Assembly (NCBI GenBank): GCA_902762785.1 | Contig: CACWPL010000022.1 | Location: 1-47,415, forward strand | Origin: an uncultured Ruminococcus sp. | Lineage (GTDB): Bacteria; Bacillota; Clostridia; Oscillospirales; Ruminococcaceae | Length of the DNA: 47,415 nt | Reading direction: 5' to 3' | Shown: one piece after another, positions 1,805 to 46,346 of the stretch | Layout of the letters: every line of letters starts with the position of its first letter | Numbering within the stretch: the first letter of the stretch is position 1 | Made by a program: the position numbers and the translations under genes | The notes under the pieces: model-generated | What the model saw: only the letters and a program-made list of their open reading frames with translations | What the model was told of the DNA's origin: nothing | The model's database searches: none

Positions 1805-3127
1805 TTACAGCCGCATCTCGCCGCCGAAGGGGAAGTGCGCGCCGCGGTAGTCATGGACGATGGAGAGCATCTCCGTATCGCCGGAGCGGGCGGCGGTCTC
1901 GCAGAGCGTGACGGCGTTCTCCGCCGTCATGCCGAAGGGCAGAAAGGCCTGGAGCCAGAGCGGGTCGCGCTGCTGACAGATCCGCTCGATCATGTAGTCG
2001 GCATAGAAGACGATGAACTCCCGGATCTCCTTGCTGTCGAAGCGCATGGCGAGCGGCACGGCCATCGCCATCTGCTGGTCGAGCCGGAGGGACTGCCGGA
2101 ACACGCGCTCGGCGTCGCGGCGCTTCCTCTCCCGCGCGAGCCGGAGCATCGCCCCGAACGTGCTCTCGTAGAAGAGGCGGGAGGGCAGGTCGAACGGCCA
2201 GTAGACCGTCACCTCCGGGCAGCGGAGCGCGATGATGTCGCCACCTCGGAACAGAGACATCTCCGGCAGCTCCACGTCGGGCGGGAGACTGATCGTCGCC
2301 GCCTCCTCGGTCAGTCCCCGCGTGCGCGGGTGGATATGGAGGATGCCGTCCGGCACGATGACGCGGGCGCCGGGCTTGATGGCGGTGATGTTCTCGACCG
2401 TGCGCGTCTCCCAGTTGACGAGCACATTGCCTGATGCCTGGAAGATCTGACTGCCTGGGGCGCTCTCCACGCGGCGCAGCCCGAGGCGTGTCAGCACGAG
2501 CGAGTCGATCCTGCATAGCGTGGGCGGCAGCGTGACCGTCGGGCCGTACATCGGCATGGCGGCGAGCTCGATGAGATCCTTCGTGAAGACGGCGTCGCCG
2601 ATCGCGGTGTAGCGCGGGTGCTCGGCCGGGATGGTCAGGGCGTCGACGCGCCGGGTGGTGTTCAGGAACGCCACGCTCTCGAGCCGCGGCGGGATCGTCA
2701 GTGCCGCGACCGTGGATCCGGCGAACGCCGTCCCTGCGATGGCGCAGGGGGCATCCGGGAGCCGCACCAGTCGGAGGCTGGGACAGTGCGCGAAGGCGTC
2801 GGCATGGATGCGGCGCATCGTGTCCGGGAGGACGAGGTCGGTGAGACAGGCGGCGTCCGCGAAGGCACCGGCCCCGATCTCGCGCGTGCCGCGGTCCCCG
2901 TCCCATAGGAAACGGACCTCGCGGAGCTTTTGCAGCTCCGCGGCCGCACCGCTCTCGATCGCCTCCACCCCGGGCGGGATGGTGATGCTGACCACGTCCT
3001 TGAGCTCGGCCAGACACTTGTGCCGGAGCACCCGCACCTCGTCCGGGATGGTCAGCTCGATCTCCGGCGGGTCGTCCGGTGTGGGCAGGATGGTGACGAG
3101 CGCCTGATCCTCGGTGATGAACAGCAT
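1805..3127 (-). CDS. Divergent BspA-type leucine-rich-repeat protein (last of seven)
   Basis: A 440-residue protein, promoter-distal in the seven-gene LRR operon. Residues from about 23 to 250 carry degenerate 22-23-residue LRR_5/BspA repeats (for example SITIPPGVEAIESGA and LTDLVLPDTMRRIHADAFAHC). The rest is a helical region unlike the other six, with RLARERKRRDAERVF and a stretch resembling an ankyrin helix pair (ENAVTLCETAARSGDTEMLSIV). It ends GGEMRL, which matches the GEEMRL and GEKRL ends of its neighbours, so it is a diverged paralog rather than an unrelated gene. It does not begin with MGF. No signal peptide or membrane segment is visible, so it should be cytoplasmic. The start is ATG at 3127 behind AAGGGAGAG. 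Molecular function unknown; LRRs usually bind proteins. Confidence 0.85.
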   Translation of the reverse strand: MLFITEDQALVTILPTPDDPPEIELTIPDEVRVLRHKCLAELKDVVSITIPPGVEAIESGAAAELQKLREVRFLWDGDRGTREIGAGAFADAACLTDLVLPDTMRRIHADAFAHCPSLRLVRLPDAPCAIAGTAFAGSTVAALTIPPRLESVAFLNTTRRVDALTIPAEHPRYTAIGDAVFTKDLIELAAMPMYGPTVTLPPTLCRIDSLVLTRLGLRRVESAPGSQIFQASGNVLVNWETRTVENITAIKPGARVIVPDGILHIHPRTRGLTEEAATISLPPDVELPEMSLFRGGDIIALRCPEVTVYWPFDLPSRLFYESTFGAMLRLARERKRRDAERVFRQSLRLDQQMAMAVPLAMRFDSKEIREFIVFYADYMIERICQQRDPLWLQAFLPFGMTAENAVTLCETAARSGDTEMLSIVHDYRGAHFPFGGEMRL

Positions 3128-3142
3128 GGTCTCTCCCTTCTA

Positions 3143-3157
3143 TGCCGTTTCGGCATG
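3143..3157 (-). other. Perfect small hairpin between two LRR genes
   Basis: ATGCC and GGCAT pair around a GAAA tetraloop (minus strand), between the stop of the 273-residue LRR gene and the ribosome site of the next. There is no T run, so it is not a typical terminator. It could serve as an mRNA processing or stability element; that role is inference. Confidence 0.4.
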
Positions 3158-3174
3158 GTGTAAAAATGTAAGCG

Positions 3175-3996
3175 TTATAGCCGCATCTCTTCCCCTGCGA
3201 TATGTCCCCGCCGCTGCTTCTCGTTGACGAGGACGATGTAGCCCTGCTTGGATCCGTGCTCGGAGGCAAGGCCGATGGCCTCCTCGAGATCTCGATCGCT
3301 GATCGGCGCCATCGCGAGGAGCGCCCGCAGCGCGAGGGGGTCGTCATGCACGACAGCATAGCGGAGCAGGTGGGGATGGACGCGCTCGACGGCAGAGAGG
3401 AACGCTTCGTCCCGATAGCCATTGCCAAGGAGCGTGCAGAGATCGCGCTGCGTGAGCTCGGATAGGGCGTCAGTGACCCGAAAGCTGCGGCAGAGCAGAC
3501 GGAATACGTTGATGAGGTACTCCCCAGTCAGCCCCTGATACTGCGCAGGGGTGGGGAAACGGGACGCCCTCTCCCCCAGGACGGTGACCGTGGTCAGGCG
3601 CTCGCAGTCCGCGAACGCGTCAGATCCGATCTTCGTCACGCTCGCCGGGAGCGTCACCGCGGTCAGGCTCGTGCAGTGATCGAACGCGCGCATTTTGATC
3701 ACCTCCACGCCCTCCGGGACAGTCACTGTGGTCAGGCGCGTGCAGTCCATGAACGTCCACGCACCGATCGCCTTCACGCCCGCCGGGATGGTCACGGAGG
3801 TCAGGCTCGTGCAGAGATCGAACGCACGATCTCCGATCACGGTCACGCCCGCCGGGATGACCACCGCAGTCATACGCTTGCGGTCCTCAAAAGCATTGTT
3901 CCCGATCTCCGTCACGCCGTCCGGGACGGTCACCTCCGTGGTCTCAGGCTCTTCTCCGTATCGTTTCAGGACACCGTCTATGATCACAAAGCCCAT
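3175..3996 (-). CDS. BspA-type LRR protein with shared C-terminal domain
   Basis: A 273-residue protein. It starts MGFVIIDGVLKRYGEEPE, then has about six 23-residue repeats of the form LTSVTIPAGVKAIGAWTFMDC (residues ~20-140), a link containing PTPAQYQGL, and a C-terminal helical domain of about 110 residues (DLCTLLGNGYRDEAFLSAVERV ... HDDPLALRALLAM ... YIVLVNEKQRRG) ending GEEMRL. LRR_5 repeats make curved protein-binding scaffolds. The helical part has the spacing of two to three ankyrin-like helix pairs; this is my reading and not a confirmed domain. There is no signal peptide, unlike classical surface BspA proteins. It lies 30 bases after the preceding paralog, so is co-transcribed. Confidence 0.88.
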   Translation of the reverse strand: MGFVIIDGVLKRYGEEPETTEVTVPDGVTEIGNNAFEDRKRMTAVVIPAGVTVIGDRAFDLCTSLTSVTIPAGVKAIGAWTFMDCTRLTTVTVPEGVEVIKMRAFDHCTSLTAVTLPASVTKIGSDAFADCERLTTVTVLGERASRFPTPAQYQGLTGEYLINVFRLLCRSFRVTDALSELTQRDLCTLLGNGYRDEAFLSAVERVHPHLLRYAVVHDDPLALRALLAMAPISDRDLEEAIGLASEHGSKQGYIVLVNEKQRRGHIAGEEMRL

Positions 3997-4026
3997 GGCG
4001 CTCCCTCCTTTTACGATGATGATGGT

Positions 4027-4770
4027 CTACAGCCGCTGCGCATCCTCCGTGAGAAGACCGCGCGCCTGTTTCTCATTGACGAGGATGATATAGCACGCCT
4101 TCGCGCCCTGTGCGGACGCGCGGGCGAGCGCGACCTCGAGCTGATGGTCGGTGAGCGGACGCATCGCGAGGAGCGCCCGCAGCGCGGGGGCGTCGTCATG
4201 CTCGATGACGTAGGACAGCAGGGGGACACGGCTCCGCTCGGCGGCGGCAAGGAACGCCTCGTCCCGATAGCCGCCCGCGAGCAGGGCGCAGAGGATGCGG
4301 TACCGCGTCTCCGTGGAGACGTCTTTTTTGTTTTGGGATAGACGCTGCATGTCGAGCCGATCGGGGATGGACAGGCGCGCGTACTGTGCGGGCACGGGGA
4401 AGGGGCGGTCGGCGTCCGCGCGGAACGTGAGCGCTGTCAGCTTCGTGCAGCCTAAGAACGCCCGATCTCCGATGCTCTTCGCGCCCGCCGGGAGGGTCAC
4501 GGAGGTCAGGCTCGTGCAGTCTTTGAACGCGCACTGCCCGATCGACGTCACGCTGTTCGGGATGTCCACCGCAGTCAAGCGCGTGCAATGTGAGAAAGCG
4601 CTCGTCCAGATCATCTCCACGCCCGCAGGGATCGTCACGGAGGTCAGGCTCGTGCATCCCTTGAATGCGTCCCATCCGATCGCCCGCACCCCGTCCGGCA
4701 CCGTCACCGCCGTGACCCCCGGCTCCTCCGTGTATCTGACCAGCGTGGTGAACTTGATCTGAAAGCCCAT
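4027..4770 (-). CDS. BspA-type LRR protein with shared C-terminal domain
   Basis: A 247-residue member of the array: N-terminus MGFQIKFTTLVRYTEEPG, four LRRs plus a capping strand (for example LTSVTIPAGVEMIWTSAFSHC), then PVPAQYARL and the shared helical domain (YRILCALLAGGYRDEAFLAA ... HDDAPALRALLAM ... YIILVNEKQARG) ending EDAQRL. The first 26 residues are identical to those of the next paralog at 4792-5472. The ribosome site AAAGGAGCGATCAC precedes ATG, and only 21 bases separate it from the promoter-proximal gene's stop. Cytoplasmic by lack of a signal sequence; binding partner unknown. Confidence 0.88.
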   Translation of the reverse strand: MGFQIKFTTLVRYTEEPGVTAVTVPDGVRAIGWDAFKGCTSLTSVTIPAGVEMIWTSAFSHCTRLTAVDIPNSVTSIGQCAFKDCTSLTSVTLPAGAKSIGDRAFLGCTKLTALTFRADADRPFPVPAQYARLSIPDRLDMQRLSQNKKDVSTETRYRILCALLAGGYRDEAFLAAAERSRVPLLSYVIEHDDAPALRALLAMRPLTDHQLEVALARASAQGAKACYIILVNEKQARGLLTEDAQRL

Positions 4771-4791
4771 GTGATCGCTCCTTTTGATAGA

Positions 4792-5472
4792 CTATAGTCG
4801 TTTTTCGCCCTCCGTGAGGAGACCGCGCCTTTGCTTCTCGTTGACGAGGAGGAGGTAGCTCTCCTTCGCGTCGTGTTCGGCCGCGAGGGCGAGGAGCGCC
4901 TCGAGCTCCTCATCGTCGGGCGTGACCATCGTGAGGAGCACACGGAACGCGGCGGCGTCCCCGGAGGCGGCGTAGCGCATCAGGAAGGGACAGGCCCGCT
5001 CGACGGCAGCGAGGAATCCCGGCTCCCGATAGCCGTTCCCGAGCAGGGTGCAGAGGATGCGGTACAGCGTCACCATGGTCATGCTGCCCTTCTGGAATCG
5101 GTCGACATAGAGGCTGTGCAGGGCGATCTGCTCGCGGATGGACAGGCTCTTGTACTGTGCCGGGAGGGGGAACGGCCGGTCGGGGCCTCCCTCGAACGTG
5201 AGCATGGGCAGGGAGGTGCAGTTGTCGAACGCGAGCCTGTCGATCTGCGTCACGCGCCGCGGGATGTTGATGGACGTCAGTCCCGTGCAGTACGAGAAAG
5301 CCATCGTCCCGATCGACTGCACGCGCGGCGGGAGCACGATCGAGGTCAGGCTATGGCACGCAAAGAACGCGTAGTTCTCGATCGTCCTGACCCTGCGCGG
5401 CACCGTCACCGCCGTGACCCCCGGCTCCTCCGTGTATCTGACCAGCGTGGTGAACTTGATCTGAAAGCCCAT
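4792..5472 (-). CDS. BspA-type LRR protein, shortest of the array
   Basis: At 226 residues this is the shortest copy: MGFQIKFTTLVRYTEEPG, three LRRs plus a capping strand, PLPAQYKSL, and the shared C-terminal helical domain (YRILCTLLGNGYREPGFLAAV ... AASGDAAAFRVLLTM ... YLLLVNEKQRRG) ending EGEKRL. About 280 bases of its 3' half (4803-5085) are nearly identical to 5505-5785 in the next gene, and its first ~75 bases plus the 5' flank nearly match those of the gene at 4027-4770. It therefore looks like a mosaic of its two neighbours, made by recent duplication or gene conversion with loss of repeats. Confidence 0.88.
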   Translation of the reverse strand: MGFQIKFTTLVRYTEEPGVTAVTVPRRVRTIENYAFFACHSLTSIVLPPRVQSIGTMAFSYCTGLTSINIPRRVTQIDRLAFDNCTSLPMLTFEGGPDRPFPLPAQYKSLSIREQIALHSLYVDRFQKGSMTMVTLYRILCTLLGNGYREPGFLAAVERACPFLMRYAASGDAAAFRVLLTMVTPDDEELEALLALAAEHDAKESYLLLVNEKQRRGLLTEGEKRL

Positions 5473-5493
5473 GTGATCGCTCCGTTTGATAGA

Positions 5494-7200
5494 CTATAGT
5501 CGTTTTTCGCCCTCCGTGAGGAGGCCGCGCCGTTGCTTCTCGTTGACGAGGAGGAGGTAGCTCTCCTTCGCGTCGTGTTCGGCCGCGAGGGCGAGGAGCG
5601 TCTCGAGCTCCTCATCGGAGGGCGTGACCATAGCGAGCAGCACACGGAACGCGGCGGCGTCCCCGGAGGCGGCGTAGCGCATCAGGAGGGGACAGGCCCG
5701 CTCGACGGCAGCGAGGAATCCCGGCTCTCGATAGCCGTTCCCGAGCAGGGTGCAGAGGATGCGGTACTGCGTCAAGGTGGGGATGTCCTCTCGCTGGTAG
5801 CCGCTGGTGAACAGTCGGAGCATCGTGATCAGCTCCATCCCGTGCAGGCCCCTGTACTGCGCGGGCGTGGGGAAACGGGAGGCGTTCTCCCCGATGATCT
5901 CGAGCGTGGTCAGGTGATGGCAGTGCTCGAACACGTCGTCCCCCATCAGCATCATGCGCCCAGGGAGGGTGACGGCGGTCAGGCTGCCGCAGTTGGAGAA
6001 AGCGAACCATCCGATCTCCTCCACGCCCGCCGGGAGGCGCACCGCTGGCAGGCTCGTGCAGTCGGCAAATGCGCCATACCCGATCACCTTCACGCTCTCC
6101 GGGAGGATGACCGACGTCAGGCTCCTGCAATTTTGGAGCATATGCGCGCTGACCTTCGCCACCCCCTCCGGGAGGCAGATCGCAGTCAGGCTCCCACATC
6201 CCTCGAATGCGCTCGCACCGATCGTCCGCACGCTGTCCGGGAGCGTGACCGCAGTCAGGCGCGTGCATTTGGCGAACGCACGCTCTTCGATCGTCCGCAC
6301 GCCGTCCGGGAGCGTGACCGCAGTCAGGCGCGTGCAGCCGTAGAGCGCATGGTGCCCGATCGTCTCCACACCGGCGGGGACGATGACCTCCTCCGGATCG
6401 CCCAGCACGGCCTGCAGCGTCCCCTCCCGGATCACGAGCCGCGTTTGCTGTTCGATGAGCCACGGCGTATCATAAAAGGAAGCCCGGCTGAGAGACTGCA
6501 AACGCACCGGCAGGCGGACTGTGATCAGGCGCTTGCAGCCGGAGAACGCAAGGGCCTCGAGCATGGCCATCTCCTCCGGCAGCTCGATCGCCGTCAGGCT
6601 CGTGCAGCCGGAGAACGCATCCTCTTTGATCAGACCCACGCTCTCCGGGAAACGCACCGCAGACAGGCGCTCGCAGTTGAAGAACGCCCCGTTCTCGACC
6701 ATCTGCAAGCGCTCCGGCATCGTGATGGTGTACAGGCGCCTGCAATGTGCGAACGTGCCCTCCCCGATCGTGCGCAGGCGCGGGGGGAGCTGCACATCCG
6801 TCAGGCTCTCGCAGTAGGAGAACGCGTGCGCGCCCAGCTCCGTCACGCGCTCCGGGAGGCGCACCGCGGTCAGACCGCTGCCATAGAACGCGCCCACTCC
6901 GATCGTCACCAAGCCCTCTGGAAAGCGGATCTCGGTCAGGCTGCTACAGAGCCGGAACGCATCCCTCCCGATCGTCCGCAGACCGTCCGGAAGGTACACC
7001 CTTCTGAGATGCTCGCATCCCCAGAACGCCCCACCGCGGATCTCCGTCACGCTCGCGGGGAGGACGACCGAGGTCAGGTGGTCGCTGTAGGCGAACGCGC
7101 GCTCCCCGATCACCGTCACGCCGTCCGGCACCTGCACGCCCGTGTACCTCGGCAGCGCCTCACATTTTTTCAGGACACCGTCCTCGATCGTGAAGCCCAT
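5494..7200 (-). CDS. Large BspA-type LRR protein with shared C-terminal domain
   Basis: A 568-residue protein with about 17 LRRs of 22-23 residues. Ten repeats are followed by an inserted island (DTPWLIEQQTRLVIREG then GDPEEVIVP), seven further repeats and the capping strand. TPW islands are a known feature of BspA-type arrays. The C-terminal ~130 residues are the family domain (PTPAQYRGL ... YRILCTLLGNGYREPGFLAAV ... YLLLVNEKQRRG, ending EGEKRL). An open frame runs 132 codons further upstream, but that part is the shadow of the neighbouring gene; ATG 7200 is chosen because MGFTIEDGVLKK matches the other copies and AAAGGAGGGAGCGCC precedes it. No signal peptide or membrane segment. Confidence 0.9.
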   Translation of the reverse strand: MGFTIEDGVLKKCEALPRYTGVQVPDGVTVIGERAFAYSDHLTSVVLPASVTEIRGGAFWGCEHLRRVYLPDGLRTIGRDAFRLCSSLTEIRFPEGLVTIGVGAFYGSGLTAVRLPERVTELGAHAFSYCESLTDVQLPPRLRTIGEGTFAHCRRLYTITMPERLQMVENGAFFNCERLSAVRFPESVGLIKEDAFSGCTSLTAIELPEEMAMLEALAFSGCKRLITVRLPVRLQSLSRASFYDTPWLIEQQTRLVIREGTLQAVLGDPEEVIVPAGVETIGHHALYGCTRLTAVTLPDGVRTIEERAFAKCTRLTAVTLPDSVRTIGASAFEGCGSLTAICLPEGVAKVSAHMLQNCRSLTSVILPESVKVIGYGAFADCTSLPAVRLPAGVEEIGWFAFSNCGSLTAVTLPGRMMLMGDDVFEHCHHLTTLEIIGENASRFPTPAQYRGLHGMELITMLRLFTSGYQREDIPTLTQYRILCTLLGNGYREPGFLAAVERACPLLMRYAASGDAAAFRVLLAMVTPSDEELETLLALAAEHDAKESYLLLVNEKQRRGLLTEGEKRL

Positions 7201-7231
7201 GGCGCTCCCTCCTTTTGATGATGATGACACG

Positions 7232-8122
7232 TCACAGCCGCCGCTCGCCGTCCACAAGAAGACCGCGTTTTTTCTTTTCGCCGACGAGGACGATGTAGCA
7301 CGCCTTCGCGTCCTGCTCGGCGGCGCGGACGATGAGCGTCTCGAGATCCCGATCGGAGAGCGGCGCGTCCCTGAGGATCGCCCGCAGCGCGGGGACGTCG
7401 TCGCTTCTGATGGCATATGCCAAAAGATGCGGCCGGCTCCTCCTGACCGCAGCGAGGAACGACGCCTCGCGGTAGCCGCTCGCAAGGAGGCCGCAGAGGA
7501 TCCGCAGGCGCGTTTCGGGGAAGATGGCGTTCTCCTGGAGGCGGTGGGAGAAGAGGCGGTACATGTCGATCTGGTCCTCGATGGAGAGGCTCGCATACAG
7601 GGCGGGGGTGGGATAGGGCCCGACCCGCCACGCCGGGAGGCGGAGGGTGGTCAGGCGCGTGCAGCCGGAGAACACGAACTGCCCCATCTCCCACACGCGC
7701 TCCGGGAGCGTGACGGAGCGCAGGCGCGTGCAGTGCGCGAACGCGCCGACCCCGATCTGCCAGACGCTCTCCGGGATGGTGACCGTGGTCAGGCTCGTGC
7801 AGCCATCGAACGCGCACTTGCCGATGATCTCCACGCCATCCCCGAGGCGGAGGGCAGCAAGGCGCGTGCAGCCGTCGAACGCGCTCGGCCCGACCTCCAC
7901 CACGGTCCCCGGGATCCTGACCGCGGTCAGGCTCGTGCATCCCTTGAACGCGCTCCTTCCGATCGTGCCCACGCAAGGCGGGAGGGTGACGGCAGTCAGC
8001 GCCGTTTGTTCCCTGAAAGCCCCCCACCCGATCGTCCGCACCCCGTCCGGGACAGTCACGGCCGTGACCCCCGGCTCCTCGGTGTACGCCGTTAGGATAT
8101 GCCCCTCGATCGTGAAGCCCAT
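7232..8122 (-). CDS. BspA-type LRR protein with shared C-terminal domain
   Basis: A 296-residue copy starting MGFTIEGHILTAYTEEPG, with six LRRs plus a cap (for example LTAVTLPPCVGTIGRSAFKGC), PTPALYASL and the shared helical domain (LRILCGLLASGYREASFLAAV ... IRSDDVPALRAILRD ... YIVLVGEKKKRG) ending DGERRL. It is the most diverged of the six MGF copies at the VNEKQ motif, which here is VGEKK. The ribosome site AAAGGAGGGACTGCC lies just before ATG, and 22 bases separate it from the upstream gene. Second gene of the operon counted from the promoter. Confidence 0.88.
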   Translation of the reverse strand: MGFTIEGHILTAYTEEPGVTAVTVPDGVRTIGWGAFREQTALTAVTLPPCVGTIGRSAFKGCTSLTAVRIPGTVVEVGPSAFDGCTRLAALRLGDGVEIIGKCAFDGCTSLTTVTIPESVWQIGVGAFAHCTRLRSVTLPERVWEMGQFVFSGCTRLTTLRLPAWRVGPYPTPALYASLSIEDQIDMYRLFSHRLQENAIFPETRLRILCGLLASGYREASFLAAVRRSRPHLLAYAIRSDDVPALRAILRDAPLSDRDLETLIVRAAEQDAKACYIVLVGEKKKRGLLVDGERRL

Positions 8123-8144
8123 GGCAGTCCCTCCTTTTGATAGA

Positions 8145-9920
8145 CTACAGTCGTTTTTCGTCCCCGGTCAGGAGGCCGCGCTTTTGTTTCTCGTTGACGA
8201 GGATGAGGTAGCTCTCCTTCGCCCCGCAGTCTGCCGCGCGGGCGACCGCGGCCTCGAGCGTCTCATCGGTGATCGTCCCGATCGTAAGGAGCGGACGGAG
8301 CGCGAGGACATCGTCATGCTCGACGGCGCAGCGCAGCAGACGGGCGCGGGAGCGTTTGACGGCCGCGAGGAACGCTTTGTCCTGATAGCCGCCCACGAGC
8401 AGGGTGCAGAGGATGTGGTATCTCAGCTCGTTCGAGATACCATTTCGCCGAAAACCATCGTCGAAGAGACGGCACATCTCGAAGAGCGCCTCCCCCAACA
8501 GGCCCTTGTACTGCGAAGGCGCGGGGATACGGGACGCCCTCTCCCCTTGGAGGGTGACCGTGGACAAGGAATCGCAGCCAAGGAACGCCAGCCCGCTGAT
8601 CTGCTCCAGTTGATCCGGGAGGGTGATGTCGGTCAGGCTCGTACATTCTTCGAATGCGTAAGATCCGATCTTCACGCTGCGCGGGAGGATGACCTTGGTC
8701 AGGGCCTCACTATCATAGAACGCATACATCTCGATCGTTCCTACGCTATCCGGGATCGTGACCTCGGTCAGGCTCACACAGCTTGCGAACGCGTTCGCGT
8801 CGATCGTCCGCAGGCCGTCCGGGAGCGTGACCGACCGCAGATGCCTACAGTTGGAAAACGCATCCGCTTCGATCTCCCTCACGCTGTCCGGGAGCGTGAT
8901 CGTGGTCAGGCTCATGCATTCGTAGAGCGCACCGTCCCCGATCGTCTCCACGCCATCGGGGACGATGACCTCCTCCGGATCGCCCAGCACAGCCTGGAGC
9001 GTCCTCTCCCTGATCACGAGCCGCGGCCGCTGTGCGTGGAGCCACGGCGTTTCGTGAAAGGACGATCTGCTATACTGCGGCGATCCCGTCGGCAGGTCGA
9101 CTGCGGTCAGGCGCTTGCAGCCGGAGAACGCAAAGCCCCCGATCACCTCCAAGCCTGCCGGCAAATGCACCGCAGACAGGCTCGTGCATCTGGAGAACGC
9201 GGATCCGCCAAGCGTCTTCAAGCCTGCCGGCAGGTCCACTGTCGCAAGGCTCGTACAGCCGGAGAACGCATTTTCCTCTATCCTGCTCACGCCGTCCGGG
9301 ATCGTGATCGTGGTCAGGCATGTGCTATCCTTGAACGCCTCCGCGCCGATCGTGCGCAGGCGCTCCGGGAGCTGCACCGACGTCAGGCGCTTGCAGATGC
9401 TGAACGCTGCTTTTTCGATCTCTGTCACGCCCTCCGGGAGGCGCACCGCCGTCAGACCGCTGCTCTCGAACGCGTACGCTCCGAGCGACACCAAGCCCTT
9501 CGGCAGATGGATCGCGGTCAGTTGCCCGCAGCGCTGGAACGCCTGCGCCCCGATCGTCCGCAGGCTGTCCGGGAGGGAAACCGCGGTCAGGCCATCACAG
9601 CCCCAGAACGCCTCGGCGCCGATCTCCTCCACGCCCGCCGGGAGGCTGACCTTGGACAGGCGGCTACAGAGCAGGAACGCCCTCTCCCCGATCGTTCGCA
9701 GGCTGTCCGGGAGAAGGATCGTGGTCAGGCTGTCGCAGCACTGGAACGCACTTTCGCAGATCGCCGTCACGCCCGCCGGGAGGATGATCGAGGTCAGGCT
9801 CTTACAGAAAGCGAACGCGCGCGCACTGATCACCGTCACGCCCTCCGGGATCGTCACCTCCGTGACCCCCGGCTCCTCGGTGTACTTGATGAGGATACTG
9901 CCCTTGATCGTGAAGCCCAC
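8145..9920 (-). CDS. Largest BspA-type LRR protein, first gene of the operon
   Basis: A 591-residue protein beginning VGFTIKGSILIKYTEEPG with GTG as start at 9920. The start is fixed by the ribosome site AAAGGAGGGAGCGCC at the spacing seen in the other copies and by the GFTI homology; an in-frame ATG at 9950 would put the ribosome site inside the gene. It has about 18 LRRs interrupted by a TPW island (ETPWLHAQRPRLVIRERT), then the shared C-terminal domain (PAPSQYKGL ... YHILCTLLVGGYQDKAFLAAV ... YLILVNEKQKRG, ending GDEKRL). The island is nearly identical to that of the 568-residue paralog, so the two share an origin. Promoter-proximal; probably sets expression of all seven genes. Confidence 0.9.
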   Translation of the reverse strand: MGFTIKGSILIKYTEEPGVTEVTIPEGVTVISARAFAFCKSLTSIILPAGVTAICESAFQCCDSLTTILLPDSLRTIGERAFLLCSRLSKVSLPAGVEEIGAEAFWGCDGLTAVSLPDSLRTIGAQAFQRCGQLTAIHLPKGLVSLGAYAFESSGLTAVRLPEGVTEIEKAAFSICKRLTSVQLPERLRTIGAEAFKDSTCLTTITIPDGVSRIEENAFSGCTSLATVDLPAGLKTLGGSAFSRCTSLSAVHLPAGLEVIGGFAFSGCKRLTAVDLPTGSPQYSRSSFHETPWLHAQRPRLVIRERTLQAVLGDPEEVIVPDGVETIGDGALYECMSLTTITLPDSVREIEADAFSNCRHLRSVTLPDGLRTIDANAFASCVSLTEVTIPDSVGTIEMYAFYDSEALTKVILPRSVKIGSYAFEECTSLTDITLPDQLEQISGLAFLGCDSLSTVTLQGERASRIPAPSQYKGLLGEALFEMCRLFDDGFRRNGISNELRYHILCTLLVGGYQDKAFLAAVKRSRARLLRCAVEHDDVLALRPLLTIGTITDETLEAAVARAADCGAKESYLILVNEKQKRGLLTGDEKRL

Positions 9921-9991
9921 GGCGCTCCCTCCTTTGTGCGTATCGTCCAAAATACCCGCCGTGATCCGACGAAATATCCGTACATATCACC

Positions 9992-10021
9992 ATTATACCA
10001 CATCCCCCGTGCCCGTGTCAA
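9992..10021 (-). promoter_or_regulatory. Promoter of the seven-gene LRR operon
   Basis: On the minus strand: TTGACA, 18 bases, TATAAT, about 65 bases before the GTG start of the first LRR gene. No other good promoter is visible between the LRR genes, whose gaps are only 21-47 bases, so this is likely the main promoter. Confidence 0.75.
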
Positions 10022-10047
10022 TGAAAATGTGAACATCTGTGCCGCGC

Positions 10048-10076
10048 TTGCAATTTCCCAAAGATCATGCTATAAT
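10048..10076 (+). promoter_or_regulatory. Promoter of the DUF4132 gene
   Basis: TTGCAA, 17 bases, TATAAT. The LRR-operon promoter ends only about 27 bases away on the other strand, so one regulator bound between them could control both. Confidence 0.75.
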
Positions 10077-10132
10077 GGATTCACAGAAATACGACCGCCG
10101 CCCCCGCGGCGGAGACTTGGAGGGAACGACCC

Positions 10133-13100
10133 ATGCTGTACCAGAACGATACCGATGCCGGATTTCCGACCGTTGCCGAGGCGCTGCGCCTGTACAGTGT
10201 CAAGGAGGAGAACATCGCGCTCCTGCCGCAGTTCCTCGACCTCGAGAAGCCCCGCGACCTCACCATCCTCGACCGTGCCGACCGCCAGACCTTCAGCAAC
10301 TACGGTCGCGCCGCCGGTCAGCTCCGCAAGGCCTTCATCCGCGAGATCGTCGGCAAAAAGTCCGATGAGCTGCTGATCCGCTGGTTCCTCTACCTCGATG
10401 CAGTCGCAGGGGCGACTGCGGTGCATCTGACCGTCTCCGGCGGCGGCTATGCCGATGTCCTCGGGAACGACCGCTTCGAGGACATCCTGATGCAGGCGCT
10501 CACCGCCCGCTATGGGGACGATGCCGAGGCCGTCCGCCTCGCCCAGAACGTCACGTTCCGCTCGTGGCGCTATTTCAACTATGCGTTCCGCGGCTTCAAG
10601 GCGCCCGAGCCCGCCCTCGCCCTGCGTGCCGCCGACTTCGTGGACGGCTACGGCGAGCGCCTCTCCCTTACCATCTTCGCCCTGGGTGGCCTGACGCCGC
10701 CCAAGTCCGGCGTCCTCGGCGGGCTCCTTGCCAAGAAGGATCCGCTCGTCGCCCGCACGCTCGAGCTGCTCGCCGAGGCGTCCGCCGGGAACAAGGCGCA
10801 CCCCGAGTACGGCACCTTGCTCACCATCGCGTATGCCCTCGCCGTGCCGTTCTCGAAGTCCATCGCCGCGCAGTTCCCGCAGAACGCCGCGTCCTTCGCC
10901 GACCAGGTCCTCGAGCAGGCCATCGCCTGGACGGACCTCCATGCGGAGCGCGTCTGCGCCGTCCTGAACACGCTCCCCGGCCTGCCGCCGAAGTATTTCC
11001 GCCATGTCGCCATCGCCGGGCAGATGCACAAGACCGAGACCTGCCAGGCCGTCTCCGCCACCCTGCCCGACCTCGTCCGCCGCTTTCCCGAGGACGCCCG
11101 CAAGGCGCTCGATGCCCTCCTCGGTGACGATCACACCGCCGCCAAGGCCATCGAGGACATCCTCGCCGAGGACGACCCCGCCGTGCGCGGCACCGTCCAC
11201 CGTGCCTGCAAGGACGCCTGCCTCGAGGGACTGACGCGCAACTATCCCGACAAAAAGCCCGAGGTATCGGCATTTTTGGAGGGACGGTCCGACGCCGCCG
11301 CCATCGCCGCCCTCGGTCTGCCGCAGGACGAGCGGTTCTGGCTCTCATCGCAGGTGCCGTATGTGAAGCTGTTCGGGATGGACGATTTCGCGGAGCGCTG
11401 TGTCGTGTTCCAGGCGATGGTCAATTTCGACACCTACACCCTCCGCTTCGTCCCCGGCATCAACGAGGACACGGAGGGCGCCAATATCTGGGATCTGCTC
11501 GAGAAGTACGATGTCCCCGCCCCGCAGCAGCTCGCGTTCGCCGTCTCCTATTCCAATGACCAGTATACGAAGGAGCGCGCCGCTGCCTTTCTGCCGCGTC
11601 TGCGCGAGCGGCGCGCCGAGATCGCCGCGGCGGACGTCTCCAAGATGAACGTCCCGTCGCGCGGATGGCGCCTGCGCCTGATGGCCGAGGACATGCCGAC
11701 CTACGCCGACGCCCTCTTCGCCACGGAGGACGGGAGCAAGGTCGTCCGCGCGGTGCTGAACGAGGTCCTGCCCGCCCCCGGCACCGGCTACGACGACCAG
11801 ATCGCCGCGATGCTGGGCGCCAAGAAGGCCACCCGCCGTGAGGCCGCGATCGACCTGATCGCCCGCACGGGTCTGACGGACGGCCTGCGTCCCGCCGTGG
11901 AGGCCGCGCTCGAGAAGGAGAAGTCCGAGAAGCTGCGCGTCAAGCTGACCGGCCTCCTCGGCGGCACGGTCGCGCCGACCGAGTCCGCACCGGCGGGGTC
12001 GGAGGACCTCGTCAAGTCGCTGACGAAGGGCGCCAAGGTCCGCAAGCTCGCGTGGGTGACGGAGCCGGCGCTCCCCGTCGTCCACAAGAAGGACGGCACC
12101 GAGGCCGATGCCGTCTACCTAAGCGCCCTCCTGCTCGCCTACGCGGACGGGATGCCCGGGGAGCGCAGTGCCGCCGCCGACACCCTCGCCGCCGCCCTCG
12201 ACCCCGCCGACCTCGCGGCGTTCGTCACCGAGGTCTATGGGCGGTGGATGGGACAGGGCGCGCCCGCCAAGCAGAAGTGGGTGCTGCTCGCGGCGGCCGT
12301 CCACGGCGGGGCGGACATGCTCGACGCCCTGCGCGCGGCCATCAAGGAATGGTCGGAAAATTCCCGCGGCGCCATCGCGACCGACGCCGTCCGCGCCATC
12401 GCGATGAACGGCAGCTCGCTCTATCTCATGGCCGTCGACGCCATGGCACGCAAGTACAAGAACAAGCAGGTGCGCGCCGCCGCCGCCAAGGCGCTCGTGG
12501 ATGCCGCGGACGCCATCGGCATCACCAGCGAGGAGCTGGCCGACCGCATCGTCCCCGACCTCGGCTTCGGCCGCGACCTCTCCCGGACGTTCGATTTCGG
12601 GTCGCGGCAGTTCACCGTCTACCTCACCCCCGCGCTCGAGCTGGAGATCTTCGAGGGTGAGAAAAAGCTGAAAAATCTCCCCAAGCCCGGCGTCAAGGAC
12701 GACCCCGAGAAGTCCGCCGCCGCCGTCCGCGACTTTAAGGAGATGAAAAAGCAGATGAAGGCCGCCGTGCAGAGTCAGCGCGAGCGCCTCGAGCACGTCC
12801 TCCTCTGCGAGCGCCAATGGACGGCGGACGCGTGGCGTGCGCTCTTCATCGAAAAGCCCGTGATGCACTGCTTCGCGATCGGACTGATCTGGGGCGTATA
12901 TGATACGAACGGTAAGCTGACGGATACTTTCCGTTACATGGAGGACGGCTCGTTCAATACCGTCGACGAGGACGAGTACACGCTCCCGGACGGTGCGATG
13001 ATCGGCCTCGTCCATCCCATCGAGCTGGACGCCGAGACACTGTCCGCGTGGCGCGAGCAGCTCGCGGACTACGAGATCACACAGCCGTTCGACCAGCTCT

Positions 13101-13534
13101 CCCGCCGCATCTGCACGCTCACGGACGACGAGCGCGGCAGGACCGTCCTCTCCCGCTGGAGCGACCTCGACCTCCCCGCGATGACCTTCCTCGGCCGCAT
13201 GACGCGCGCCGGGTGGGACAAGGGCTGCGCGCAGGACGCGGGCATGTTCTACGAGTTCCTCCGCACGGACATCGCGCGGCAGGAGAAGGCCGCCGACGGC
13301 ACGCTCCGCCGCGAGGGATGGCATGCGGAGCTGAAGTTCTCCGGCATGTACATCGGCGGATTCTACGAGGGCATGGACGATGTCCAGGTCGAGGGCCTGA
13401 CCGTGACCCGTCCCGACCACATCGGAAAGCCCCTGCCGCTGGGCGAGGTGTCGCCGCGGTATCTCTCGGAGCTGCTGCTCCAGATCGACCAGGCCGTGGG
13501 CTCGAGCGCCCCGGCAGACAAGGAGGATGCATGA
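10133..13534 (+). CDS. DUF4132-domain protein
   Basis: A 1133-residue soluble protein with no signal peptide. The C-terminal ~220 residues match the DUF4132 (MolR/YehI-like) pattern: a block with LVHPIELDAETLSAW, then the hallmark YEITQPFDQLSRRI, followed by GRMTRAGW. The preceding ~800 residues are almost all helical with Ala-rich repeats resembling HEAT-type solenoids (for example AAKALVDAADAIGITSEELADR). Molecular function is not established for this family; in E. coli the relative yehI lies beside MoxR-type ATPase and VWA genes, but neither is present here. It starts at ATG 10133 after GGAGGGAACGACCC, overlaps the following lipoprotein gene as ATGA, and is divergent from the LRR operon, which suggests a joint role. 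Confidence 0.8.
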   Translation: MLYQNDTDAGFPTVAEALRLYSVKEENIALLPQFLDLEKPRDLTILDRADRQTFSNYGRAAGQLRKAFIREIVGKKSDELLIRWFLYLDAVAGATAVHLTVSGGGYADVLGNDRFEDILMQALTARYGDDAEAVRLAQNVTFRSWRYFNYAFRGFKAPEPALALRAADFVDGYGERLSLTIFALGGLTPPKSGVLGGLLAKKDPLVARTLELLAEASAGNKAHPEYGTLLTIAYALAVPFSKSIAAQFPQNAASFADQVLEQAIAWTDLHAERVCAVLNTLPGLPPKYFRHVAIAGQMHKTETCQAVSATLPDLVRRFPEDARKALDALLGDDHTAAKAIEDILAEDDPAVRGTVHRACKDACLEGLTRNYPDKKPEVSAFLEGRSDAAAIAALGLPQDERFWLSSQVPYVKLFGMDDFAERCVVFQAMVNFDTYTLRFVPGINEDTEGANIWDLLEKYDVPAPQQLAFAVSYSNDQYTKERAAAFLPRLRERRAEIAAADVSKMNVPSRGWRLRLMAEDMPTYADALFATEDGSKVVRAVLNEVLPAPGTGYDDQIAAMLGAKKATRREAAIDLIARTGLTDGLRPAVEAALEKEKSEKLRVKLTGLLGGTVAPTESAPAGSEDLVKSLTKGAKVRKLAWVTEPALPVVHKKDGTEADAVYLSALLLAYADGMPGERSAAADTLAAALDPADLAAFVTEVYGRWMGQGAPAKQKWVLLAAAVHGGADMLDALRAAIKEWSENSRGAIATDAVRAIAMNGSSLYLMAVDAMARKYKNKQVRAAAAKALVDAADAIGITSEELADRIVPDLGFGRDLSRTFDFGSRQFTVYLTPALELEIFEGEKKLKNLPKPGVKDDPEKSAAAVRDFKEMKKQMKAAVQSQRERLEHVLLCERQWTADAWRALFIEKPVMHCFAIGLIWGVYDTNGKLTDTFRYMEDGSFNTVDEDEYTLPDGAMIGLVHPIELDAETLSAWREQLADYEITQPFDQLSRRICTLTDDERGRTVLSRWSDLDLPAMTFLGRMTRAGWDKGCAQDAGMFYEFLRTDIARQEKAADGTLRREGWHAELKFSGMYIGGFYEGMDDVQVEGLTVTRPDHIGKPLPLGEVSPRYLSELLLQIDQAVGSSAPADKEDA

Positions 13535-14169
13535 AACGACGTATCATCGCCGCCGCACTGGCCGCTGTCCTGCTCGGCATGGGCGGCTGCGGCGGTCTGG
13601 ACGACCCCGCCGCGCAGACGCCCGGCGCCGCCCTCGCCCAGACGGATGCCCCCGCCGAGACGGCGGCCATCCCCGAGGGCGCCATCACGGACGATGAGGG
13701 CAAGTTCGCCTTCACCGGCAAGACCCAGCAGGTCGGCGACGACGACCACGGGTATCTCCAGGTGCCGCTGGGGTATCTGCCCTTCCAGGAGGAGGGCGTC
13801 GACGGGCTCGTGCAGTACAGCGACAGCACCGGCACCAACATCCTCACCCTCCAGCACTACGCCGACATGGACTACAGCACCGCCGCCCAGAGCATGTTCG
13901 CCTACATGCAGTCCAATGAGGACGTGGAGGGACTGACCGGCGCGACCGTCACCGCCGGCGGCTACGACGCCCTCCAGATCTACGGCCACTACAAGGACGG
14001 CTATTTCCTCGTCATCTGGTTCATCGACGACCCGAGCAGCGAGAGCGGGTGCTACTACCTCGCCATCGAGTTCGACGGGGAGCACCAGGACCTGATCGCG
14101 CTGTCCTCGACCTTCCAGAACCCTGCGGACTTCCACGCCTCCGGCAAGTCCGTCGACAAGATCGGCTAA
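13531..14169 (+). CDS. Small lipoprotein coupled to the DUF4132 gene
   Basis: A 212-residue protein with a lipoprotein signal peptide (MKRRIIAAALAAVLLGMGG, Cys20), an Ala/Pro/Thr-rich linker to about residue 55, then a compact domain (VPLGYLPFQEEGVDGLVQY ... ATVTAGGYDALQIYGHY ... YYLAIEFDGEH) resembling small extracytoplasmic domains of Firmicute lipoproteins that I cannot name. The ATG overlaps the stop of the DUF4132 gene (ATGA) with AAGGAGG inside that gene's end, so translation is coupled. Coupling a membrane-surface lipoprotein to a cytoplasmic DUF4132 protein is unusual. No function can be assigned. Confidence 0.85.
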   Translation: MKRRIIAAALAAVLLGMGGCGGLDDPAAQTPGAALAQTDAPAETAAIPEGAITDDEGKFAFTGKTQQVGDDDHGYLQVPLGYLPFQEEGVDGLVQYSDSTGTNILTLQHYADMDYSTAAQSMFAYMQSNEDVEGLTGATVTAGGYDALQIYGHYKDGYFLVIWFIDDPSSESGCYYLAIEFDGEHQDLIALSSTFQNPADFHASGKSVDKIG

Positions 14170-14226: not shown

Positions 14227-14535
14227 TCATTCGTCGTCGGGGCGGTAGTCGTCATCGGGGGTAGATGCCTCGTCGGCCGCGTCCTCGGAGAGGATGACGG
14301 TCAGATAGGGGTCGGCGTCCTCCGCATCGAGGATGGTGCGCAGGAGGCGCGGCTCCACGGCGTCGGCGTCCGAGATCCAGAGGATGGTCTCCCGCGAGAT
14401 CTCGGTCAGCAGGTCGAAGAGCGCGTCGAGGTTCTTCCCGTACCAGTCGGGGAATCCCAGCACGCGCTGGAGGTAGTCATGGGCGGCGGGCAGCTCGCGG
14501 AGCGCGGCGCCGTCCAGCTCGTAAACATCGGTCAT
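14227..14535 (-). CDS. Barstar-family ribonuclease inhibitor
   Basis: A 102-residue cytoplasmic protein with the barstar fold signature: YELDGAALREL at the N-terminus and LGFPDWYGKNLDALFDLLTE (the barnase-binding helix with WYGKNLDAL), followed by ETILWISDADAV and a strand YLTVILSE. The tail is acidic. It should bind and block the barnase-like RNase encoded immediately upstream, protecting the producing cell. The start is ATG 14535, with AAAGGAG inside the end of the RNase gene; an upstream ATG at 14550 overlaps that ribosome site. Last gene of the aroC operon. Confidence 0.93.
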   Translation of the reverse strand: MTDVYELDGAALRELPAAHDYLQRVLGFPDWYGKNLDALFDLLTEISRETILWISDADAVEPRLLRTILDAEDADPYLTVILSEDAADEASTPDDDYRPDDE

Positions 14536-14546
14536 AGCGGCTCCTT

Positions 14547-15227
14547 TCAATATAGCTGGGTGAAGGTCTTGTAGTGGTCGTTGGTGTAGTAGACGCTGCC
14601 GTCGGCGCCGTAGATCAGGCGCTCGGCCTGACGAAATCCACCCTCGTAATTGACGTCACACTCGCGGTAATCGCCGTCGGGGAGCAGACCCTCGCGGTTG
14701 CCGAAATAGTCGCCGCCGATGCTCTTGCCCGGGGCCACGTCCCAGAGATTGCCCTCCGAGCTGACCCATCCGAGCTTCTGCGCCTGCTTCTTGGTGATGA
14801 AATTGCCGGGGAGCGTGCCGAAGGTGTGGATGTAGGCGGCCACGTCCTCGGGGGTCGTGTAGCTGCCGTCCTTCTCGACGGAGGGCACGTCCGGGTCGTC
14901 CTCCGGGACGGTCGTGGGAGCCTCGGTCGGCGGGTCGGTGGGCGCGTCGGTCTCGGCGGCCTCGTCCGTCTCGTCCGTCTCATCGGTCTCGGTCAGGACA
15001 TCGGTCTCGGGGACGGTCTCGGGGACGGTCGTTTCCTCCGACCACCCCTCACAGGCGGGGCAGGAGGCCTCGAGCGCGGCCTTGCCCTCGGCATCGTCGT
15101 CGAGGACGATGGTGATGCTCGCGGTGGGGATGGTCTCCTCCGTGACCTCCGTGGCCAGAAGGCCGCCGCACCCCGTCAGGAGTGCCGTACATAGCGCCAA
15201 AAACAGCGCAGCGATGCGTTTTTTCAT
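14547..15227 (-). CDS. Barnase-like guanyl-preferring RNase anchored as a lipoprotein
   Basis: A 226-residue protein. Residues 1-20 are a lipoprotein signal (LLTGC, Cys20); 21-118 are a Thr/Glu/Asp-rich linker with a CPAC motif at 56-59; residues about 120-226 are a complete barnase domain (ITKKQAQKLGWVSSEGN, VAPGKSIGGDYFGNREG, GGFRQAERLIYG, TNDHYKTFTQLY). All five catalytic residues of Bacillus barnase are conserved: Lys146 (K27), Glu189 (E73), Arg199 (R83), Arg203 (R87) and His218 (H102). It would cleave RNA, with His as acid and Glu as base. Classical barnase is freely secreted, so membrane anchoring through a long linker is notable. The start at 15227 is backed by AAAGGAG; barstar follows 11 bases after its stop. 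Confidence 0.93.
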   Translation of the reverse strand: MKKRIAALFLALCTALLTGCGGLLATEVTEETIPTASITIVLDDDAEGKAALEASCPACEGWSEETTVPETVPETDVLTETDETDETDEAAETDAPTDPPTEAPTTVPEDDPDVPSVEKDGSYTTPEDVAAYIHTFGTLPGNFITKKQAQKLGWVSSEGNLWDVAPGKSIGGDYFGNREGLLPDGDYRECDVNYEGGFRQAERLIYGADGSVYYTNDHYKTFTQLY

Positions 15228-15253
15228 GTGGATGGCTCCTTTCTGAGATGACA

Positions 15254-23163: not shown

Positions 23164-24243
23164 TCAGTGGAAGTCGCCGGATAGCTTGGTGCGGTAAGAG
23201 ATCTCGGGTATCTCGAACAGATCGCTGTAGAGGTCTCGGGCAGGGCCATAGCCCTGCTTGCAGGCGCGCCACAGCATCTCGCGCAACTCCATCATAGAGA
23301 GCGGCGCCATCCCAAGGCGATCACGGAGGATATTGCCGATGGTCACGATCTGGTAGAGCGCGACAGGGTCGTCTGCCTCGGCAGCACGGCACAGCAGCGC
23401 ATATCCCTGGGCGAGGTCGCCTTTTTGGACATAGAGCAGTCCTGCATTCAGGATGGACTTGATGTCGCCAGCCTCTGCGCCGCGGCAGTACCATGTGAGC
23501 GCGGCATCGAGATCGAGCGGGACGCCGTAGCCCTTCTCATAGCAATAGCCAAGGAGCTGCTGGCCCTGTGGATGCCCCTGCTCCGCAGCACGGCGGAACA
23601 GCGCAGCGGCGCGCGCCGAGTCCTGCGGGACCTGCTGCCCCAGGTAATAGCACATCCCAAGCGCGGTGCAGGCGTCCGGTATGCCCTCCTGCGCAGCCTC
23701 CTCGAGGGTCTGGAGGGGCGTATCGGTGTCATAACGGATGGCATCGCGGCAGATGTCGATGCCCTCTGACGCGAGGATCTTTTGGAACATCTCGTCCTCG
23801 CTCTTACAATTGCTGCGGTAGATGGCCTGCTCCATGCTGCAATAGAGCCGGAGCCCCCGCGGGAGCTGGACATCCTCCAGATAGACGACCAGATAGGGCG
23901 TATCCTGGTGGATCGCCGCGTTGAGCTCGGCACAGCAGTTGTGCGAGTCGACATAGCGCTGAGTCACGAGCGCGATCAGATAGCTGCATCCTTCGAGCTT
24001 CTCGGCGATGTAGTCCGCCCATTTCACGCCGGAGCGGATCCCTTCGTCATACCAGATGCGGAGCCGCTCCTGCCGCAGCGCGCGGAGGATCTGGAAAGCC
24101 GTCTCGTCATCCGCATGGGCATAGCTGAGGAACACGAAAGGTGCGTCGCCGTCATAGGCCGCAGGGCGCGGAGGCGCGGCCTTTTCTAGAGAAGGGAACA
24201 GTTCTCTGGGGGAATCGGACTTCTTGTGATCTTGGAGATCCAT
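23164..24243 (-). CDS. TIR-domain protein with Sel1-like repeats
   Basis: A 359-residue soluble protein. Residues about 35-160 form a TIR domain: FVFLSYAHADDE, RIWYDEGIRSGVKWADYIAEKLEGC, YLIALVTQRYVDSHNCCAELNAA; Glu106 in CCAE sits where TIR NADases have their catalytic Glu. Residues ~175-330 hold about four Sel1-like/TPR-type repeats (ACTALGMCYYLGQQVPQDSARAAALFRRAAEQG is typical), which usually bind proteins. Bacterial TIR proteins act as NAD-consuming immune effectors or as signalling adaptors; either fits. It has its own promoter, divergent from degV, and starts at 24243 behind AAAGGAGGG. No CRISPR, STING or ThsA-type partner is adjacent, so a defence role is inference. Confidence 0.88.
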   Translation of the reverse strand: MDLQDHKKSDSPRELFPSLEKAAPPRPAAYDGDAPFVFLSYAHADDETAFQILRALRQERLRIWYDEGIRSGVKWADYIAEKLEGCSYLIALVTQRYVDSHNCCAELNAAIHQDTPYLVVYLEDVQLPRGLRLYCSMEQAIYRSNCKSEDEMFQKILASEGIDICRDAIRYDTDTPLQTLEEAAQEGIPDACTALGMCYYLGQQVPQDSARAAALFRRAAEQGHPQGQQLLGYCYEKGYGVPLDLDAALTWYCRGAEAGDIKSILNAGLLYVQKGDLAQGYALLCRAAEADDPVALYQIVTIGNILRDRLGMAPLSMMELREMLWRACKQGYGPARDLYSDLFEIPEISYRTKLSGDFH

Positions 24244-45846: not shown

Positions 45847-45878
45847 TAATCATATTTTTGGGTATAGTGAGGTATGAA

Positions 45879-46346
45879 ATGAAAAAACAGAAGAAAAGAA
45901 AGCGCATAATTTGGCTTGTTATTATTATACCAATCATTTTAACAGTATTTCCAATTAAATTCACAAAGAAAGCAAATAATAACAGTGAAGAAGAATATTA
46001 TATAGCAAGTTGTATATCAGAAGGCACAACAGATGCAGGAGTATGGATAATTATAGGAAATAATGAAGGTATGTGGGAAGATGAAATGCCTGTTATTTTT
46101 AATGGAAAGAATCCTAAAAATATCCTTTCTTATGATATATGTAATAATGATACAGAATTTATAATTTATGGTAAATTATCAAAAAAACAGGATGAAGAGT
46201 ACTATACACTTAATAGTCAAAGATGGGAAATATATGATGAAGTAAGAAGAGGAGAGTATGCCTATAGAATACCATTTAAACATTTTATTACTGTATATGA
46301 CTTGAAGTGGTTTGACTTCTTACTTACTGATAAAGGATACGACTAA
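45879..46346 (+). CDS. Putative immunity protein for the RHS toxin tip
   Basis: A 155-residue protein beginning MKKQKKRKR, followed by one membrane segment (about residues 10-27, IIWLVIIIPIILTVFPI) and an extracytoplasmic domain of about 120 residues rich in acidic and aromatic residues (MWEDEMPVIFNGKNP). The positive N-terminus predicts N-in, C-out topology. It starts 33 bases after the RHS stop behind GTGAGGT, the standard place for the cognate immunity gene. No known family was recognised. A domain outside the membrane would meet a toxin acting at the surface. Immunity role is inferred from position. Confidence 0.75.
   Translation: MKKQKKRKRIIWLVIIIPIILTVFPIKFTKKANNNSEEEYYIASCISEGTTDAGVWIIIGNNEGMWEDEMPVIFNGKNPKNILSYDICNNDTEFIIYGKLSKKQDEEYYTLNSQRWEIYDEVRRGEYAYRIPFKHFITVYDLKWFDFLLTDKGYD

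Follow-up and report, generated by a model that had tools for sequence, protein, structure and literature searches.

The DNA analysed here (the window) is a stretch of 47,415 nucleotides (nt) from an uncultured Ruminococcus sp. (assembly GCA_902762785.1, contig CACWPL010000022.1). At 1805-9920 on the minus strand it carries seven intact leucine-rich-repeat (LRR) genes in the same direction (g1 to g7), arranged head-to-head with a plus-strand operon at 10133-14169 that encodes a DUF4132 protein and a lipoprotein (Table 1). As a preliminary description of this DNA had proposed, the LRR array and the DUF4132 gene probably belong to one system. Support beyond position comes from LRR genes intercalated into the corresponding operon of related genomes and from proteins in which LRR, DUF4132 and the C-terminal domain (CTD) of the LRR proteins are fused. 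The gaps between g1 and g7 measure 21-47 nt, and the DUF4132 and lipoprotein reading frames overlap by 4 nt. The two predicted promoters, both near consensus, face away from a common centre with 26 bases between their -35 boxes, in agreement with the spacing of about 27 bases given previously. Promoter-like sites numbered 3 in the 13.9 kb scanned, with 1.2 expected, and the back-to-back pair are the best two.

Table 1 Features of the LRR array and the DUF4132-lipoprotein operon (positions in the window)
Feature	Position	Strand	Description
g1	1805..3127	-	440-aa divergent LRR protein; final array gene; LRR_5 E 1.2e-12
g2	3175..3996	-	273-aa LRR + CTD protein; LRR_5 E 1e-30
g3	4027..4770	-	247-aa LRR + CTD protein; matches Pfam LRR_5 and CTD model
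g4	4792..5472	-	226-aa LRR + CTD protein; apparent g3/g5 mosaic
g4 3' end and spacer	4775..4951	-	95% identical to 5477-5653 (g5 3' end); repeat family D3
g5	5494..7200	-	568-aa LRR + CTD protein; ~18 repeats
g6	7232..8122	-	296-aa LRR + CTD protein; AlphaFold2 model
g7	8145..9920	-	591-aa LRR + CTD protein; ~19 repeats; GTG start; opens array
LRR-array promoter	9992..10021	-	TTGACA-18-TATAAT; consensus match only, 12/12 positions
DUF4132-operon promoter	10048..10076	+	TTGCAA-17-TATAAT; consensus match only, 10/12 positions
DUF4132 gene	10133..13534	+	1133 aa; Pfam DUF4132 E 2.8e-51 at residues 844-1028
Lipoprotein gene	13531..14169	+	212 aa; without Pfam family

All seven array proteins match Pfam LRR_5 (expect values (E) from 1.2e-12 to 5.8e-118), in line with their earlier assignment as tandem BspA-type LRR genes. 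Judged by eye, no signal peptide is visible in the first 45 residues of any of the seven, again as first described. The ribosome site is shared, as proposed, and the 40-nt leaders of g2-g7 are 62-100% identical in pairwise comparison. Other features are less uniform than the preliminary description had it. The supposedly common start MGF...YTEEPG holds the exact motif YTEEPG in g3, g4, g6 and g7, whereas g2 reads YGEEPE, g5 is different and g1 begins MLFITEDQ. Repeat number does vary, from ~4 to ~19 by a rough regular expression (3 to 18 in the preliminary description). The helical CTD ascribed to all seven is clear in six (g2-g7; ~127 residues, 46-78% identity). The divergent g1 does not match CTD model A2, which was trained without it, and is alike by eye only in its last residues; its match to the later CTD/CTD1 model is circular, as g1 was included in the training.

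In the AlphaFold2 model of g6 (predicted local distance difference test score (pLDDT) 92.9, built from 20 sequences), an LRR arc leads into eight helices and then a loose tail, with confidence lowest at the end of the tail (block mean 54). By sequence, the CTD has no confident relative among solved structures (best E 0.016), and in structural searches with the LRR-CTD model the match lists were filled by the LRR part. The tail ends in leucine, mostly as KL or RL, in 77 of 83 LRR-CTD proteins of the genus loci, compared with 2 of 45 core proteins there. Conserved and loose, it may serve as a docking peptide or an AAA+ handle.

The DUF4132 protein is predicted (model pLDDT 85.7, predicted template-modelling score 0.52) to fold into a long helical solenoid (~residues 10-805), an alpha/beta DUF4132 domain (844-1028) and C-terminal strands. 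Foldseek matches to this model were confined to helical-repeat proteins of a generic kind (best E 3.6e-4) with low template-modelling scores, and no sequence relative was found in the Protein Data Bank (PDB) at E 1. Of 22 other DUF4132 loci in the genus, 15 have a relative of the lipoprotein 3' of DUF4132; contig ends cut some of the remainder. A phage or plasmid origin found no support: tblastn against phage genomes gave no match to the DUF4132 protein, and 9000-13534 has no near DNA match among plasmids. One PHROG family matches the protein (E 1.5e-74), although phage members of that family were not found. Matches in the plasmid collection (20 of 23 listed) reach at most 37% coverage at 24-37% identity, and several of the records concerned are chromosome-sized.

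In surveys of 295 genomes of the order, 197 of the family and 38 of the genus, DUF4132 was found in 8, 19 (18 above cut-off) and 22, respectively, and DUF5682 in 24 of the genus genomes, including all 22 DUF4132 carriers. Within and outside the genus the usual gene order is MoxR-DUF5682-VWA-SWIM-DUF4132 in one direction, rotated in some loci; in relatives a lipoprotein gene closes the operon after DUF4132. Of the 24 genus genomes that bear the system, 11 have LRR genes with a homologous CTD inside this core operon (G320, G422, G475, G476, G477, G478, G479, G485, G488, G489 and G498). The window genome is one of the 24 and not one of the 11. The largest array, that of G489, reads LRR-MoxR-6 LRR-DUF5682-10 LRR-VWA-6 LRR-SWIM-DUF4132-lipoprotein and comprises 23 LRR genes over ~32 kb, one with the CTD only and one with the LRR only, while the G475 operon holds 19 LRR-CTD genes, some of them short pieces; the compact G422 operon has two. 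Genes on the same strand follow each other closely in the 11 array stretches, with a median spacing of 11 nt and 83 of 96 gaps no longer than 50 nt.

LRR genes are abundant in this genus, LRR_5 being detected in all 38 genomes with at least 23 to 102 matched stretches each, so that a single LRR neighbour would prove little. Tandem duplicates might therefore have landed in the operon without any functional link, and LRR-CTD genes do occur away from it as well. We consider such a bystander expansion very improbable, and the present data already disfavour it. An LRR gene was assigned to the operon if it shared the strand of a core gene, or of an LRR gene already assigned, and lay no more than 800 bases from it. 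On this definition the 22 genus stretches together, including those without LRR genes, hold 26 LRR genes over 174 kb of operon, whereas the flanks of 21 of them hold 3 over 165 kb. Operon density is thus ~8-fold that of the flanks in the pooled genus set and ~40-fold in G489. The operon LRR genes stand upstream of MoxR and in the three gaps spanning MoxR to SWIM; in the array loci examined, the gaps between SWIM and DUF4132 (0/8) and between DUF4132 and the lipoprotein (0/6) contain no LRR gene. Moreover, most operon LRR proteins carry the CTD and the leucine tail.

A wider comparison drew on 84,980 species genomes, from which the best 80 of at least 497 loci were taken and 79 examined (L173 was too short and was left out). 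Sixteen of the 79 are genus loci, seven of them with CTD-type LRRs in the operon. Among the 63 loci outside the genus, co-directional LRR_5 genes lacking the CTD occur in two, one of them with a dockerin; these look like chance neighbours, as a bystander origin would predict. Set against the operon counts within the genus, this background makes chance adjacency very unlikely.

Co-occurrence offers modest evidence for the link between LRR genes and DUF4132. In the genus, DUF5682 is present in 11 of 12 genomes with at least ten CTD matches, versus 13 of 26 others (p 0.03). In the family sample, DUF4132 accompanies the CTD in 5 of 7 genomes versus 14 of 190 (p 1e-4); the window's own genus supplies three of these five co-occurrences, and without it the figure is 2 of 4 (p 0.03). 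All three p values ignore kinship. At four loci from Lachnospiraceae and other Clostridia (L187, L197, L199 and L211), DUF4132 itself occurs in tandem, in 2 to 4 copies, with no LRR genes on the stretches examined. We read these as possibly another way of multiplying the large subunit.

Fusion proteins join the same parts in one chain, which also speaks against a bystander origin. In G428, a family member, a single 788-aa protein combines LRR_5, DUF4132 and, at its C-terminal end, the second half of the CTD (E 1e-4). Its neighbours, an AAA ATPase and a VWA-like protein with DUF2201, form an ATPase-VWA pair of another kind (the MoxR/DUF2201 locus type). The DUF4132 protein of G250 ends in the same CTD piece (E 2e-5) and has LRR genes on both sides, and G007 encodes a contig-cut LRR-DUF4132 protein with a CTD-like ending by eye. 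The available part of one report describes LRR, WGR and DUF4132 in one protein, Leptospira LIC_12901 (PMC11674859). A further DUF4132 architecture was seen at L066 (5382-10685), where a 1767-aa protein carries DUF5724, DUF4132 and DUF7737; no LRR gene was detected on that stretch.

Phylogenetic trees of two core proteins group most of the array-bearing genomes. In the VWA tree (the very long G461 row set aside), a single clade unites nine operon-LRR genomes (support 97/96), and the window row lies apart from it, beside G497 (94/96). In the DUF4132 tree (the G320 row disregarded), seven operon-LRR rows group together as a clade (100/99); the LRR-less G501-G503 are adjacent, and G476 and the window lie outside. 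Given the separate position of the window in the VWA tree, the association of LRR genes with the core seems to have arisen twice or to have been lost often. Nor would bystanders be expected to become associated with the core a second time, as seems to have happened in the clade of the window.

The window genome (2.82 Mb, 62 contigs, 92% complete) contains all five core genes, though on two contigs and not in one operon. DUF4132 (that of the window), DUF5682 and the VWA_CoxE relative are single-copy, and MoxR, DUF5682, VWA and SWIM-type genes stand together on contig C18 at ~22-29 kb. MoxR, VWA and SWIM were assigned there by similarity to relatives, the SWIM Pfam match on a relative being weak (E 0.031). 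The preliminary description had placed DUF4132 relatives with MoxR and VWA genes, which applies to the relatives, whereas here these partners lie on C18. Four further LRR-CTD genes occupy 2.9-9.0 kb of C18, ~13 kb from MoxR and separated from it by unrelated genes. Of 12 CTD matches in the genome (g1 not among them), 10 fall on the two system-bearing contigs. Genes that by eye resemble radA and a pfkB-type kinase adjoin the four LRR genes on C18, and in G497 such genes adjoin DUF4132-lipoprotein and one LRR gene. We read these radA/pfkB-type neighbours (L117, L033) as possible traces of a rearranged common locus.

With moderate confidence, we propose that the LRR-CTD proteins serve as interchangeable recognition modules in a cytosolic remodelling machine of MoxR, VWA and DUF4132. 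MoxR-VWA pairs are known as remodelling or activation machines. This one would be assembled from the DUF4132 solenoid protein, a MoxR-type AAA+ ATPase, DUF5682, and the VWA_CoxE and SWIM-type proteins; a lipoprotein gene belongs to the same operon. The LRR-CTD proteins would act as client adaptors or sensors, each LRR arc binding its own ligand, while the helical CTD and leucine-ending tail fasten the protein to the shared machine. DUF4132 would be the most likely docking site, because the CTD is fused to DUF4132 in another locus type. In this simplest scheme, the client once bound, or the complex with DUF4132, might then be remodelled or activated by MoxR/VWA. In the window genome the machine would be split, with DUF4132-lipoprotein and seven LRR genes in the window and MoxR-DUF5682-VWA-SWIM on C18. 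The shared locus, operon intercalation, fusions, array expansion, mosaicism and predicted folds are observed, and we infer docking, client remodelling and the nature of the ligand.

A number of observations weigh against this proposal. The other 12 system-bearing genus genomes have no operon LRR gene on the pieces examined, where contigs of G494, G501, G502 and G500 cut the operon and LRR genes beyond would be missed; LRR genes 2.4-3.3 kb from DUF4132 in G497 and G495 were left out of the count. The adjacency suggested at the outset as a check thus held within the genus (11/24) and not outside it, CTD-type LRRs standing beside the core in 0 of 63 non-genus loci among the best 80 of at least 497. 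Because the core lacks LRR genes in those 12 genomes and in nearly all other genera on the stretches examined, these genes are an add-on and not essential to it. Conversely, array genomes contain 12-44 CTD matches each, only part of them at the operon, and G493 (100% complete) has 22 CTD matches and neither DUF4132 nor DUF5682. The leucine tail was ruled out as a mark of operon membership: 21 of 26 complete dispersed LRR-CTD proteins (one of which, L223, actually lies in the G479 operon) end in leucine as well, so the tail marks the family and not the operon. The CTDs of the window and of its congeners are remote homologs (hhalign E 1e-5, probability 82%), and the window row in the VWA tree sits on a long branch. 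Finally, among reciprocal best LRR pairs from nine species (at most eight for each species pair), non-synonymous divergence (dN) was below synonymous divergence (dS) in both the LRR part and the CTD wherever dS was measurable, bar one near-identical pair (0.01/0.01). Many ortholog pairs were saturated, and the values are whole-gene averages that could hide a few sites. Orthologous LRR genes thus look to be under purifying selection, and hypervariability of the LRRs therefore stays unsupported.

Variation of another kind is evident within the array. The first 90 nt of g4 are 93% identical to g3 (78% in the last part) and its last 190 nt are 96% identical to g5 (65% at the start), a pattern indicating that neighbouring paralogs exchange sequence, with g4 a g3/g5 mosaic. 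Between G320 and G485 (L080, L217/L125), the LRR part has a dS of 0.01-0.12 in three of four matched LRR genes, compared with 0.39-0.73 for DUF5682, SWIM and DUF4132 of the core; MoxR is also low, at 0.11. The lower LRR values suggest a possible recent exchange of LRR cassettes between the two species, though the low MoxR value tempers this. The diversifying repertoire envisaged earlier is accordingly borne out in copy number, repeat number and mosaicism; no positive selection on the repeats is seen on average, with dN below dS in nearly all ortholog pairs compared. We tentatively entertain a stronger version of our proposal, a repertoire-type intracellular recognition system in which a constant AAA+/VWA/solenoid machine would be served by an expandable, recombining set of up to 23 separate LRR receptor genes interspersed in its operon. 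Specificity would shift by gain, loss and splicing of cassettes that share the docking domain and leucine tail.

Such a repertoire could serve anti-phage or anti-invader immunity, the LRR proteins sensing foreign proteins and the MoxR/VWA/DUF4132 machine triggering a response. This account is possible but on the unlikely side. Paralog arrays with mosaic exchange and copy-number turnover fit it, as does the contrast in dS between LRR and core genes of G320 and G485, again with the caveat of MoxR. MoxR-VWA modules are used in conflict systems according to the accessible part of Kaur et al. (2020; PMC7159879). The Deinococcus DUF4132 protein DRA0166 is reported, in the part of the source available, to rise after mitomycin C in an IrrE-dependent manner (PMC8533742), and therefore fits a stress-linked machine. 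By contrast, PADLOC-DB 2023 matched none of 10 proteins (four from the window, six from relatives) at E 0.05, and the text of PMC7159879 contains neither DUF4132, WGR nor MolR, with 'LRR' solely in its reference list. The absence, on average, of positive selection, of a near plasmid copy of 9000-13534 and of a phage match to the DUF4132 protein also argues against immunity. A defence role is nevertheless plausible.

An equally doubtful account is a quality-control or enzyme-activation chaperone without a conflict role, in which LRR adaptors would recruit the cell's own clients, for example surface or cellulosomal proteins. Comparable MoxR-VWA machines are NorQD, CbbQO and RavA-ViaA. The MoxR-type AAA_5 and VWA_CoxE pair in relatives, the apparent purifying selection on orthologous LRRs and the place of the lipoprotein in the operon all agree with it. 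However, a fixed client set gives no obvious reason for arrays that reach 23 paralogs and vary from one sister species to the next, and no dedicated client gene was seen beside the core. The present data fit either defence or a native-client chaperone and do not separate them.

Elsewhere in the window, at 14227-15236, a Barstar-family gene (E 2.7e-13) lies next to a gene for a lipoprotein that contains a ribonuclease domain of barnase type (E 2.3e-17). This pair is convergent with the DUF4132 operon and looks like a secreted ribonuclease with its immunity protein. A protein with a TIR domain and Sel1 repeats (TIR_2 E 4.5e-19) is encoded at 23164-24243, and a 2154-aa RHS-repeat protein with DUF6531 at 39382-45846 is followed by a small open reading frame at 45858-46346.

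The intercalated LRR genes provide a lead on the widespread DUF4132 and DUF5682 families, in that the machine may recognise many ligands. Sister species whose operons are otherwise constant carry 0, 3, 19 or 23 LRR genes in them and amount to a natural experiment. If the LRR proteins are receptors, the repertoire would be coupled to a MoxR/VWA machine instead of a STAND NTPase.

Compared with known systems, the window proteins differ from secreted BspA-type LRR proteins such as T. pallidum TpLRR (PDB 6mlx) in having no visible signal peptide, and structural matches of this kind mostly do not span the helical CTD. Leptospira LIC_12901 likewise unites LRR and DUF4132 in one system, yet it is a single fused protein with WGR, and no array is reported in the part of the source available (PMC11674859). 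With the MoxR-vWA ternary conflict systems (PMC7159879) the window system shares a MoxR AAA+ protein paired with a VWA protein. It differs in that Pfam bpMoxR stays below its cut-off of 27 bits on the MoxR of two relatives (21.6 bits, cut at the stretch end, and 17.3 bits), and in that recognition would fall to LRR proteins encoded by separate genes. The open literature, searched to the exclusion of most subscription papers and preprints, yielded no description of this LRR-DUF4132 arrangement and no role for DUF4132 or DUF5682.

The closest counterpart is the yeh locus of E. coli, whose yehL-yehM-yehP-yehQ-yehI genes, of unknown function, we take to be the MoxR, DUF5682, VWA, SWIM and DUF4132 set. 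Among 14 control genomes, E. coli was the sole carrier of DUF4132 and one of two carriers of DUF5682. We know of no LRR genes in that locus. Relative to a yeh-type locus, the window system has its core split over two contigs and adds the LRR-CTD genes, and this LRR-CTD form is what is new in a locus type that is known yet uncharacterised.

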